DNA of 64,000 bases, taken from assembly GCA_019636335.1 (NCBI GenBank), contig JAHBXR010000001.1, positions 186,001-250,000 on the forward strand, given 5' to 3'. The notes beneath the pieces are model-generated. The model did no database searches, was not told where the DNA came from, and worked only from the letters and a program-made list of their open reading frames with translations. Position 1 is the stretch's first letter. Each line of letters starts with the position of its first letter. This document shows positions 29,755 to 61,605 of this stretch, piece by piece. A program made the position numbers and the translations under genes. This DNA is from Pirellulales bacterium (lineage in GTDB: Bacteria > Planctomycetota > Planctomycetia > Pirellulales > JAEUIK01).

Positions 29755-29882
29755 TTTCCGAATCGGGCCCAGCACGCTGGCAACGCCGCTCCGGAAAATC
29801 GTTCGTGCTACCCCCCACCGCTTGACCGCAACATCAAGGGTTAACGGCGTAGGGTGGCACCCGATCCATGCGCCACTTCAAA

Positions 29883-29937
29883 ACTCACGCCTCGGGTTGG
29901 GATAGGGCGCAATCGCAATCCGAAACGTCAGCGAGAG
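29883..29937. repeat. decayed copy of the TTCGGGTTGGGAT inverted repeat (type C)
   Basis: The left part reads CTCGGGTTGGGATAGGG and the right part GAAACGTCAGCGAGAG, matching the two arms of the intact element at 59510-59581, with substitutions. Confidence 0.55.
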
Positions 29938-32327: not shown

Positions 32328-32590
32328 GGAATTGTCTCCTGGCAAGAAGCGTGTGCTTTTGACCGTTCGGTAAGAACGCCCACAGCATAACGAGTTTCCA
32401 GGCCAGGGACTCGCATCGGCCCCACTCCGTCGTTAAATTTAACCCGAAGCGTGAGTTTTAAAGTGGCCCGATTTGATCCGGGGCTGGCGCCGCGCGAAAA
32501 TCCACAGCCAGCGCGGTGGCCGAAAATCGACGGCGCAACAAGCCGCGCACCCGTGTACAGTGTAGGCACATCGAATGTTGTCCGATTTTG

Positions 32591-32710: not shown

Positions 32711-32978
32711 CGCTGCGAGTGGTGCGCGTACCAGCGTCCCCTACGAGGCCACCAATACCCGGTTGAGAAGCACGAGCGCCCAGCATGGTCTTCGATATGC
32801 AAGTGCCCACCACAGCACCCCTTGCAACGAATCCGCTGCTCCTGGGACGACCGAGTGGTGCGCGATGGTGCGCATGGTGCGCGAACCAACACAATTTCAA
32901 AACGCACGCTTCACGCTTGGGATTGCCATCCACGAGCAGAGACCTTGAACTAGCAATCACCCGAGCAGGCGCGAAGCT

Positions 32979-58275: not shown

Positions 58276-59409
58276 CTACTCTTCGTCGTCCCCCGCCACG
58301 AAACCGAGATAGCTTTCATAGCGCCGCGCGTCGAGCAGGTCGTCGGCCACGGCATCCTTCACCGCGCAGTCGGTCTCGTGCGTGTGGGTGCAATTCGGAT
58401 AGCGACAACGGCTGACGAAGGGGCGAAGGTCGCGAAAGTAGCCGGCCACCTCGGCGGGAATGACATCCCACAATTTGAATTGCCGGATGCCGGGCGTGTC
58501 GACGACGTAGCCACCGCCCGGCAGGGGCACGAGCCGTGCGGTCGTGGTCGTATGTCGGCCCTTCTGCGTATCCGCGCTGACGGCGCTCACGCGCAGATTC
58601 AAGCCGGGATGCACGGCGTTGAGCAACGACGATTTGCCGACGCCGCTCTGACCGGCGATGACGCTTTCCTTGCCGGCGAGCGCGTGTCGCAGGCGGTCGA
58701 CCCCCTGGCCCGTCTTGGCGCTCAGCAGCAGCACGCGATAGCCCATCTGGCTGTAGACGCCCACGAGCGGCTCGAGCGAGGCCTGTTCGACGAGGTCGAC
58801 CTTGTTGATGCAGACGAGCGGTCGAATGCGATTCTTGTCGGCGGCGACGAGAAAGCGGTCGATCAAGTTTGGCTTGAGCCGGGGCTCGGCGGCGCTGCCG
58901 ACGATCAGAAGTTGATCGACGTTGGAGACCAGGATGTGCTGTCGTCCGCGAATACGCCGGTCGAGGATGCCGCGGCGCGGCTCGATCCGCTCGATGATGC
59001 CCTCCTCGTTGTCGGCGGGGCGAAAGAGCACGATGTCCCCCGCGGCCACCACGTGGCGCTCGTCGGTGCTGAGGGTTTTTAATAACCGCCTGGTGGCGCA
59101 GCGAAAGACGTGCCCATCCTCGGCTTCGACATCGCTCAATAGCCCGTACACGCTGAGCACGCGGCCGCGCCGGCAGTTGGCCGTGTCGACGTCGATTTGT
59201 ACGGCGTCCCCTTCGCCCGTATCCGCTTCGGAAGTGACGACGGTGCGGCGACGGGTGAGCTCTCCCTTGCCGCTGATGCGCTCGTCGCTGACCAGATCGT
59301 CCGTCTCCGTCCCCTCGACATCGCCGTGGAAACGCCGCGTCAGATCGGTCTTGCGCGTGCGTGGCGCGCGGTTTTTGCGGAAATCGGCCCGAATCTTTTT
59401 CTTCGCCAT
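58276..59409 (-). CDS. rsgA: ribosome small-subunit GTPase RsgA
   Basis: A 377-residue circularly permuted GTPase: the NKVD motif (G4) comes before GQSGVGKSSLLN (G1) and DTPGIRQF (G3). An OB-fold precedes (RGRVLSVYG, VAAGDIVLF) and a zinc knuckle follows (CRYPNCTHTHETDC). The start at 59409 (MAKKKIRADF) agrees with a basic N-terminal tail typical of planctomycete homologues. It acts in maturation of the 30S subunit. Confidence 0.95.
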   Translation of the reverse strand: MAKKKIRADFRKNRAPRTRKTDLTRRFHGDVEGTETDDLVSDERISGKGELTRRRTVVTSEADTGEGDAVQIDVDTANCRRGRVLSVYGLLSDVEAEDGHVFRCATRRLLKTLSTDERHVVAAGDIVLFRPADNEEGIIERIEPRRGILDRRIRGRQHILVSNVDQLLIVGSAAEPRLKPNLIDRFLVAADKNRIRPLVCINKVDLVEQASLEPLVGVYSQMGYRVLLLSAKTGQGVDRLRHALAGKESVIAGQSGVGKSSLLNAVHPGLNLRVSAVSADTQKGRHTTTTARLVPLPGGGYVVDTPGIRQFKLWDVIPAEVAGYFRDLRPFVSRCRYPNCTHTHETDCAVKDAVADDLLDARRYESYLGFVAGDDEE

Positions 59410-59499: not shown

Positions 59500-59509
59500 G
59501 CATAAAAAG

Positions 59510-59581
59510 CCCTCGCTGACGCTTCGGGTTGGGATGCGCCGATTGGGCATCCAACATCCCAACCCGAAGCGTCAGCGAGGG
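59510..59581. repeat. 27-bp perfect inverted repeat (type C)
   Basis: Left arm 59510-59536 (CCCTCGCTGACGCTTCGGGT and on to TGGGATG) and right arm 59555-59581 are exact reverse complements, with an 18-nt loop. It lies between the rsgA and redoxin genes, where a transcript could form a long hairpin. Confidence 0.9.
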
Positions 59582-59616
59582 CGTGTGAACATCCGCGATT
59601 GACTGGAAGTCCGGGC

Positions 59617-61449
59617 CTAGAACGCCGCGGGGCGTTTTTCGCCGTCGGCCGCTGGTTCCTCCGCCTCGGCCATTGGACGCTTGCTCTTCTTCTTGTGATC
59701 CGCTGGCTTGATGGTCGAGTAGAAGCCGAACATCATTTCGTCCCACGTCTGCTCGCCCCATTTCACTTCCTTCGTGGGGTCGGGGTTTGACGGGTTCTGG
59801 TCCGAGTTGTCGAACGAGGCGGTGCAGACCATGCGGCTGCCCGCCGGAATGACTTTGGGTTCCTGGAGCATGTACCAGAGTTGCCAGTTGAAGTCGTACT
59901 TGGGCACGTCGAGCAAGGTCTCCATCGTGCCGTCCGGGTACTTCAATTCGTACTTGAACGACTTGCCCCGCACGTGCATGTGCGGGTTCATACCAAGCAG
60001 AATGGTCTCGCGGCGGAACTTCTGCTCGGCCACGACGACGTGGTTGCCGGCATGGGGCGGAATCTTGAAGAGGAAGTTTCCGCAGGCGCCCCCCTGTACT
60101 TCCTGCGTGACCTCCTTGGGGTCGGCGTAGACGAAACCGACGTAGCTGCGGTCGGTGGTTGCCTTGCCATTGGGGGTGTAGTGATTTTGGAACATGAGCT
60201 TCGAGCCGGCGGGGATCTTGATCGCGGCGCCATTTTCCAAGCGGCGCGGCGTCATGCCCGGCGCGAAGGCCATCTGCGGGCTGCCAAACTGGCTGGCCCC
60301 CGGCGCCTGGATGAAGACGATCACGTGATGCACGACGGCGGGATTCCCCGCCTTGACCTCGGCCTCTTTGATCCACTTGTCTTCGGTGAAGCCGGGATCG
60401 ACCGTGTAGTACTGGTAGTCGACGGCCCCCTCGGCGGGAATCGCGAAGGGCTCGTCACTCATGTAGAAGACATCGTCCGGCTGCGAGATGCCCCAGCCTT
60501 CGGCGAACTCGATCGGCTCGGGCAGTTGCGCGGGGTCCCCCTCGGGGCAACCGTTTTCGACCCAGCGATCGATCCGCTCCAGCTCTTCGCTCGAGAGGGA
60601 GGGATTGTTCTTGAAGTCGCCATGCTCGGGGGATGCCTGCCAGGGGGGCATGCGGCGGTTGTGGACCACCTCGCGCACCATGTCGGCCCAGCCCAGCACG
60701 TCTTCGTAACTGGTCAGCACGAACGGCGCCACCTGGCCTTCGTGGTGGCATTCGGTGCAGTGCTTCTGCATGATCCGCGAGATCTGATTCGCGTAGGTCA
60801 CCTCGTCCGAGGTCGACGTGTGCTTGACGCGGCCGATCAGGCAGCCTGGCGGATCGGTGGCAGGCTCGGTCACTTCCTTGCCCGCGAGCAGTTCCTCGAT
60901 CGCGACTTCCAAGTCGTGTCGGCCGGCCTGCTTCTTCTGCACGCCGACGCTGTACTGATCGTCGATCCGTCCGACGTAACGCACGGCGCGATCGGCGTCG
61001 AGCAGAAAGACTTCTGGCGTGCGCTCCGCGCCGAACTGGTCGGCCACGCGGTTGCCGACATCCTTGAGCACGGGAAAGGTGAGTTCCAGCTTTGCGGCAT
61101 GGGCCGCTACTTCGCTGGGGGTATCCTGCTGGTTCGAGTTGATGCCGATGACGGCGACCCCTTCGGGCTTCAGCTTCTCGGCAAGGCTCGAAAGTCGCGG
61201 AGCATAGAGGTTCGCCAGCGGGCACTCGGTGCCCAGGAACGCGACGATCACGAGCTTCGCGTCGGCCAGATCGGCGAGCGAGCGCTGCTTGCCGTGCGCG
61301 TCGGTCAGCTCGAAGTTGTCGATCTTCTTGCCGAGCCGCGCGTGGCTGGCGGTTTCCGAGTGGCCGCTCGAGGCCAAGCCGGCCATCAGGGCCACGACCA
61401 GAACCAGGCCGGCAAAACGAGACGGAGCCGTACGGAGCGATCGCAGCAT
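59617..61449 (-). CDS. secreted redoxin – cytochrome-like – copper monooxygenase-like fusion
   Basis: A 610-residue exported protein (signal peptide SRFAGLVLVVALMAGLASSG). Residues ~35-190: thioredoxin/AhpC-like domain (DNFELTDAHGKQRSLADL, VIVAFLGTECPLANLYAPRLSSL) with one clear Cys instead of a CxxC. Residues ~225-245: haem-like motif HCTECHHEG in a planctomycete cytochrome-type domain. Residues ~330-580: a domain like Cu type II ascorbate-dependent monooxygenase, with VVHHVIVF, NHYTPNG and NPHMHVRGKSF as His ligand pairs. Such fusions are common in planctomycetes. The substrate is unknown. Confidence 0.85.
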   Translation of the reverse strand: MLRSLRTAPSRFAGLVLVVALMAGLASSGHSETASHARLGKKIDNFELTDAHGKQRSLADLADAKLVIVAFLGTECPLANLYAPRLSSLAEKLKPEGVAVIGINSNQQDTPSEVAAHAAKLELTFPVLKDVGNRVADQFGAERTPEVFLLDADRAVRYVGRIDDQYSVGVQKKQAGRHDLEVAIEELLAGKEVTEPATDPPGCLIGRVKHTSTSDEVTYANQISRIMQKHCTECHHEGQVAPFVLTSYEDVLGWADMVREVVHNRRMPPWQASPEHGDFKNNPSLSSEELERIDRWVENGCPEGDPAQLPEPIEFAEGWGISQPDDVFYMSDEPFAIPAEGAVDYQYYTVDPGFTEDKWIKEAEVKAGNPAVVHHVIVFIQAPGASQFGSPQMAFAPGMTPRRLENGAAIKIPAGSKLMFQNHYTPNGKATTDRSYVGFVYADPKEVTQEVQGGACGNFLFKIPPHAGNHVVVAEQKFRRETILLGMNPHMHVRGKSFKYELKYPDGTMETLLDVPKYDFNWQLWYMLQEPKVIPAGSRMVCTASFDNSDQNPSNPDPTKEVKWGEQTWDEMMFGFYSTIKPADHKKKSKRPMAEAEEPAADGEKRPAAF

Positions 61450-61605
61450 GGCTATCCCTACTTGGGTGAATGAGCTCTGCACAGGAAGTCGTTGCCCGGG
61501 CAGGGGGGGACCTCCACCTTCAGAGAACAAGAGGCGTGCTAAGAATACAATAGCGATTGGTGCAAGTCATTACTCGCACGCGGGCAAGGTCGTTTCAAAC
61601 GACCG

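Follow-up and report, generated by a model that had tools for sequence, protein, structure and literature searches.

A perfect palindrome between rsgA and a redoxin gene

The analyzed DNA is a 64,000-nucleotide stretch of a draft Pirellulales genome (the window), in which two minus-strand genes enclose a long palindrome. On one side lies rsgA (58276-59409; PF03193; start placed by eye at the MAKKK codon), whose best relatives are 61 to 69% identical and come from Planctomycetaceae or Pirellulales bins; on the other lies an AhpC-TSA/redoxin gene (59617-61530; PF00578 and PF08534). The first-pass annotation had placed an exact 27-bp inverted repeat at 59510-59581 between these two genes. The Pfam matches agree with that position, and a repeat search of the window extends the arms to 28 nt each (59509-59536 and 59555-59582), 100% complementary and separated by an 18-nt loop (59537-59554, no strand). 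The first arm, on the plus strand, consists of a 20-nt core (CCTCGCTGACGCTTCGGGTT, 59511-59530) and a GGGATG tail; the second is inverted on the minus strand (core at 59561-59580), so that the two units, which we read as REP units, stand tail to tail.

Allowing up to three mismatches, one would expect 0.01 occurrences of the core in the window by chance; three were found, two of these being the palindrome arms. The minus-strand RNA of the palindrome has a predicted folding energy of -73.1 kcal/mol (z = -10.55), and none of 200 shuffled sequences folded as stably. On both counts, the inverted repeat at 59509-59582 is a real element that did not arise by chance. The window has no match in Rfam at the gathering threshold.

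Read along the minus strand, the redoxin stop (59617) is followed by 34 nt, the hairpin (59582-59509), a run of five T residues (59508-59504) directly after it, and then rsgA. The hairpin thus has the layout of an intrinsic terminator: it is GC rich, lies past a stop codon, and has a T run immediately after it. A terminator scan with a loop limit of 8 nt did not list this hairpin, which has an 18-nt loop. We infer that the window copy probably serves as the terminator of the redoxin gene, ending its transcript before rsgA, and selection on 59509-59582 for this function is plausible given its position and T run.

The palindrome belongs to a dispersed family of short units

A search of the draft genome (6.38 Mb) with up to three mismatches gives 121 matches to the core, as against none for the same pattern read backwards. 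Plasmid records gave no match. The lack of other intact copies, which the first-pass annotation had named as refuting its view, is not seen: at least 43 exact 20-mers occur in the genome, and the 16-mer of that annotation has 18 exact matches. We surveyed the window and 60 stretches chosen around listed core matches (about 100 of the 121), which together hold 117 units arranged as 38 head-to-head pairs, 5 tail-to-tail pairs (including that of the window), and 31 single units. Head-to-head pairs are spaced by exactly 53 nt in 29 of 38 cases, by 50 to 71 nt in seven, and by 87 and 137 nt in the remaining two. A unit is about 25 nt long (CCTCGCTNACGCTTCGGGTTRNGAT), and beyond its core lies an outer RNGAT tail; of 107 units, 97 have G, 90 have A, and 83 have T at the last three tail positions, in that order. 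Single units fold weakly and variably (about -1 to -5 kcal/mol), and the consensus base pairs are kept in 48 to 57 of 57 distinct units, a count limited by the collecting pattern, which fixed most letters.

A simple, home-made gene caller trained on the sequence itself placed 100 of 115 units outside genes, though it called 80% of the sequence coding. Among six loci with units inside called genes that we read individually, the units at four (L163, L173, L190, and L192) lie upstream of the likely start as judged by eye.

The first-pass annotation took the perfection of the palindrome as an indication of recent mobility or selection. Mobility of the family is well supported by its copy number, its distribution, and the transposase linkage described below. 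The perfection itself carries no such weight: 43 of the 117 units in the fetched stretches are the exact consensus 20-mer, so identical arms require no special recent event.

The dispersed family also bears on the view that the palindrome is nothing more than the intrinsic terminator of the redoxin gene, one that chance or selection made long and perfect and that had no mobile origin. The strong hairpin 34 nt past the stop and the TTTTT at its foot are what such an account would lead one to expect. However, the unit occurs at 121 places in the genome, mostly in another arrangement, and flanks transposases elsewhere, and most pairs lack a T run: a loose T-run test was passed by 6 of 42 paired elements, and a run right at the hairpin foot was seen by eye at the window copy and at one other (L180:2810-2882) alone. 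A T run at the hairpin foot is therefore no family trait, and the probable terminator use is a local matter. As a full account termination is contradicted by the dispersed family, and we give it scarcely any credence; as a second role of this copy it is plausible.

Degenerate pieces near 29883, 32443, and 32920 had also been reported as decayed copies, and all three exist. The first is a decayed tail-to-tail pair at 29888-29936, recovered by core and 16-mer matching, in which 29888-29903 (plus strand) faces 29912-29936 (minus strand). The second, at 32441-32455 on the minus strand, is a truncated 15-nt unit (AACCCGAAGCGTGAG) that, by eye, ends where TTTTAAAG begins. The third is a divergent fragment at 32906-32923 on the plus strand, also identified by eye. 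The 16-mer of the first-pass annotation, at up to three mismatches, is found four times in the window against about one expected by chance, with 1 of 100 shuffles reaching as many; since such a match turns up about once by chance, the piece near 32920 is weak by itself.

Larger elements and insertion sites

Some family units sit within or are interrupted by larger mosaic elements with TTTTGAAGTTGCGC arms. We noted these, for example, at four loci of the window's genome, G000 (L160, L176, L193, and L211), and likewise around or within the units at 29860-29890 and 32441-32460 of the window. At L178, L188, and L191 other outer arms (TTGTCAAAGCCAGAAG...) enclose some head-to-head pairs.

One could regard the units as the central parts of larger palindromes that end in sequences like TTTTGAAGTTGCGC, that is, as MITEs of a DDE transposon moved by another transposase. 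Many head-to-head pairs do lie within longer arms of the form TTTTGAAGTTGCGC...GCGCAACTTCAAAA, and the TTTTGAAGTTGCGC arm has 39 matches in the genome at up to three mismatches. Yet the flanks of other pairs are unrelated beyond RNGAT, and in other genomes it is the unit, not the arm, that flanks Y1 transposases. We consider a MITE origin unlikely.

Neither a target duplication nor an empty site was found for family elements in the stretches examined. At the rsgA junction we compared 26 rsgA loci, several of which end early at contig ends; none contains the redoxin gene at an E value of 1e-5, so no orthologous empty site can be read there. Composite arms without a REP pair were considered as empty sites and rejected, as their arrangements are too mosaic. 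Within pairs, the first two tail bases are common to both units in 10 of 36 cases against 4.35 expected (P = 0.008), and the single positions are not significant (P = 0.06 and 0.15). This symmetry would fit insertion at palindromic target sites but is no more than suggestive.

The family is patchily distributed across planctomycetes

At up to one mismatch, the window-type core occurs in 9 of 392 phylum-wide genomes; among 57 nearer relatives, 16 have it, this genome being counted in both sets. The genome's own family is almost devoid of it: six other members hold 1, 0, 0, 3, 0, and 0 copies, compared with 89 here. Of 149 genomes drawn from the class, 76 contain a wider pattern that covers the variants, and 35 of these hold at least ten copies. 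This patchiness and the near identity of units across orders and classes fit what would be expected of a mobile family. One distant planctomycete, G064, holds 991 matches to a GGGYT form at up to two mismatches. Tandem direct arrays occur in G410 (contigs C15, C36, C46, and C63) and at G461:C1:5215896-5216050, with periods of about 27 to 33 or about 200 to 245 nt.

In other planctomycetes the repeats flank Y1/HUH transposase genes

PF01797 searches of repeat-rich genomes combined with a locus scan identified two Y1 genes lying between repeat copies in genome G361, one (G361:C1:956169-956630) with exact window-type units and the other with CCTCGCTTGCGCTTCGGGCT units. The two proteins score 23.8 and 31.8 bits against PF01797, for which the cut-off is 23. 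We then considered 47 transposase loci that match profiles built from such proteins at E 1e-20 or better, from which weaker rows and four duplicates had been dropped. Units of the repeat pattern (up to three mismatches, within 400 nt) stand on both sides of the gene at 27 of these loci and on one side at 6, that is, on at least one side at 33 of 47. The other 14 have no unit of the pattern within 400 nt, and some of them carry other inverted repeats. Control stretches contain the repeat far less often, in 1 of 91 cases for the outer parts of transposase loci and in 2 of 428 for rsgA loci. Both-sided flanking was found at 15 of 26 loci from a class-wide draw blind to the repeat and at 12 of 21 loci from a 30-genome set in which 19 genomes had been chosen for holding the repeat. 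At one locus (L253) the left and right units have direct instead of inverted orientation.

The flanking units vary together with the transposases. Left and right units of a locus differ at 1.11 positions on average, against 3.76 for shuffled partners, and none of 5,000 shuffles gave so low a value. Repeat distance correlates with protein distance among the 27 flanked loci (Mantel r = 0.46, P = 0.0001). The four transposases that have the exact window 20-mer as their most frequent flanking unit (L150, L254, L264, and L265) form one group with support of 99/92 in a 43-row tree, and in 0 of 500 shuffles were window-type transposases as clustered; the exact window variant thus marks a single transposase clade in this tree. 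The flanked proteins carry motifs reported for class 3 TnpAY1 transposases: the HUH motif reads NHVH in 21 of 27 (other residues in 6), and a pattern match finds Y----Q in 26 of 27. A CnGA foot is present at the matching place in 37 of 57 distinct units.

Across the class-wide draw, copy number and transposase presence are modestly associated. Among the 35 genomes that hold at least ten copies, 22 have a detected transposase, against 44 of the 114 others (Fisher P = 0.019); with a cut-off of fifty copies, which was tried second, the counts are 17 of 23 and 49 of 126 (P = 0.0026). No transposase was detected in the other 13 of the 35 genomes at the lower cut-off, and such absences are uncertain in this draw, where the search scored 25 candidates per genome.

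At several transposase loci (L154, L133, L139, and L157, in G064, G423, and G047), the 4 to 5 nt outside the unit pair are often identical at both ends, and they vary between pairs of one genome (for example TACTA and AGTTA at L154). These matching outer bases may reflect palindromic target sites.

No cognate transposase was detected in the window's genome

The profiles of the repeat-linked transposases have no match in the window's genome at an E value of 0.001, and again none at E values up to 10. Elsewhere these profiles do find matches, in 21 genomes of the set of 30 and in 66 of the 149 in the class-wide draw (25 candidates being scored per genome in the latter). PF01797 has four matches here, L039, L040, L041, and L042, and we rejected each as the cognate enzyme. 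L040 has one REP pair nearby, but GGGGTCAGAAC repeats of its own bound the gene; L042 is bounded by GTCAGGTAC palindromes; and L039, L041, and L042 have no family unit within their 1.5-kb flanks.

The GGGGTCAGAAC inverted repeats that bound the Y1 gene L040 (G000:C24:2240-5575) resemble the TIRYT consensus GGGG[AT][CG]A[CG] given in the available text of PMC6006769. L042 (G000:C3:315880-319251) is a Y1 gene bounded by a second REP-like family, GTAGGTCAGGTAC...GTACCTGACCTAC, copies of which are also nested in the spacers of two pairs of the present family (L164:4389-4495 and L201:1070-1226).

With an assembly of 60 contigs and 99.1% completeness, a transposase could still lie in a gap. A location at contig breaks finds no support in 120 contig-end stretches (60 starts, 56 ends, and 4 small contigs taken whole, the starts of which are counted in the 60 as well): none matches a transposase profile, and 1 of the 120 contains the repeat. 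The repeat population of this genome is apparently orphaned, and a transposase likewise went undetected in 12 other genomes of the class draw that hold at least ten copies, again with 25 candidates scored in each.

This persistence in 13 genomes, together with the uniformity of the copies and their intergenic placement, is what one would predict if the repeat were a binding site for a host protein or an uptake site (in chromosome organization or DNA uptake) kept by selection and not spread by a transposase. Such a site would not, however, be expected to be near absent from genomes of the same family and patchy over the phylum, and its variation would have no reason to track transposases as that of the units does. 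We regard a host site as highly unlikely.

Proposed origin and significance of the repeat

Taken as a whole, we consider it quite probable that the palindrome is a tail-to-tail REP/REPIN pair of a family linked to class 3 RAYTs, part of an orphaned population in this genome, and a probable terminator at this site. By analogy to E. coli TnpAREP and IS200/IS605 (PMC8266576 and PMC6006769, each in its available text, and general knowledge), the transposase would recognize a unit by the small hairpin it forms in single-stranded DNA and would cut and rejoin at the foot of the unit, and single units and head-to-head pairs would thereby be copied to intergenic sites. The large, fairly uniform population in the window's genome would then have been left by a transposase since lost, and it is probably now immobile, as no cognate transposase was detected. 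At the window locus, the two units and the five T residues on the minus strand would form a strong hairpin 34 nt past the redoxin stop and a probable transcript end. Several observations weigh against this reading: no cognate transposase was detected in this genome, 14 of 47 transposase loci have no unit nearby, neither empty sites nor target duplications were found, single units fold weakly, the CnGA foot is seen in 37 of 57 distinct units, 13 of the 35 genomes with at least ten copies gave no transposase, and most pairs lack a T run.

A broader scenario is possible, though we put it forward tentatively and think it more doubtful than not. Class 3 RAYT genes with matching inverted REP flanks might be autonomous, IS-like single-strand transposons, with the 73-bp head-to-head pairs as internally deleted derivatives; the family would have radiated with its transposases by horizontal spread across Planctomycetes, and orphan populations would persist in part through second uses such as transcription termination.

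The family described here is a common planctomycete repeat, with no sequence description found in the papers searched, that is tied to class 3 transposases. The 27 natural transposase-repeat pairs with known variation offer material on repeat recognition by HUH transposases, and the genomes with and without a transposase offer material on how repeats persist. The repeat-transposase pairing is clear across planctomycetes, and the population in this genome is apparently orphaned.

Relation to known REP systems

The window repeat is an element of the REP/REPIN type, probably spread by class 3 RAYTs. It shares with such elements a high copy number, extragenic placement, and regularly spaced inverted doublets; a Y1 transposase in the same genome is found in other planctomycetes and was not detected in the window's genome. 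The outer unit end carries no GTAG tag in G000, where the tail is RNGAT, and two units of G361 end in GGTAG and AGTAG. A literature search found no description of the repeat by sequence in the texts available; the lone text match for the repeat or its peptides was a 12-mer in an unrelated tomato paper. One PDB sequence match (E = 0.88) was disregarded.

In the GTAG- and CGTC-tagged REP superfamilies (PMC3733652), REPs are reported for Planctomycetes among other phyla. The tag differs from that in the window's genome, and the available text of that paper leaves the searched-for planctomycete genera unnamed. The Pseudomonas REPIN/RAYT and E. coli TnpAREP-REP systems (PMC3116915 and PMC8266576, as far as their available texts go) resemble the present family in having a short palindromic, extragenic unit, head-to-head doublets at fixed spacing, and a Y1 transposase paired with a repeat type of its own. 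They differ from it in the class of transposase and in the GTAG tag, in place of which units of G000 end in RNGAT.

The closest description is that of the class 3 TnpAY1 transposases (Quentin et al. 2018, PMC6006769). According to its available text, these enzymes occur mainly in Planctomycetes, Acidobacteria, and Proteobacteria and carry the motifs NHVH and Y----Q, and their genes stand between atypical repeats that fold weakly, have a CnGA foot, and reach high copy numbers (about 600 in Solibacter usitatus). Its authors view class 3 as a possible evolutionary intermediate that needs experiments. The transposases linked to the window's repeat family share the phylum, both motifs, and the placement of the gene between weakly folding, high-copy repeats, and it is on motifs, phylum, and anatomy that we take the window repeat to be a REP of class 3. 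The likeness is to that description and not to a repeat sequence, with CnGA present here in the 37 of 57 distinct units given above; what the present family adds to the account in the available text is the match between left and right units and a large repeat population in a genome where no transposase gene was detected.
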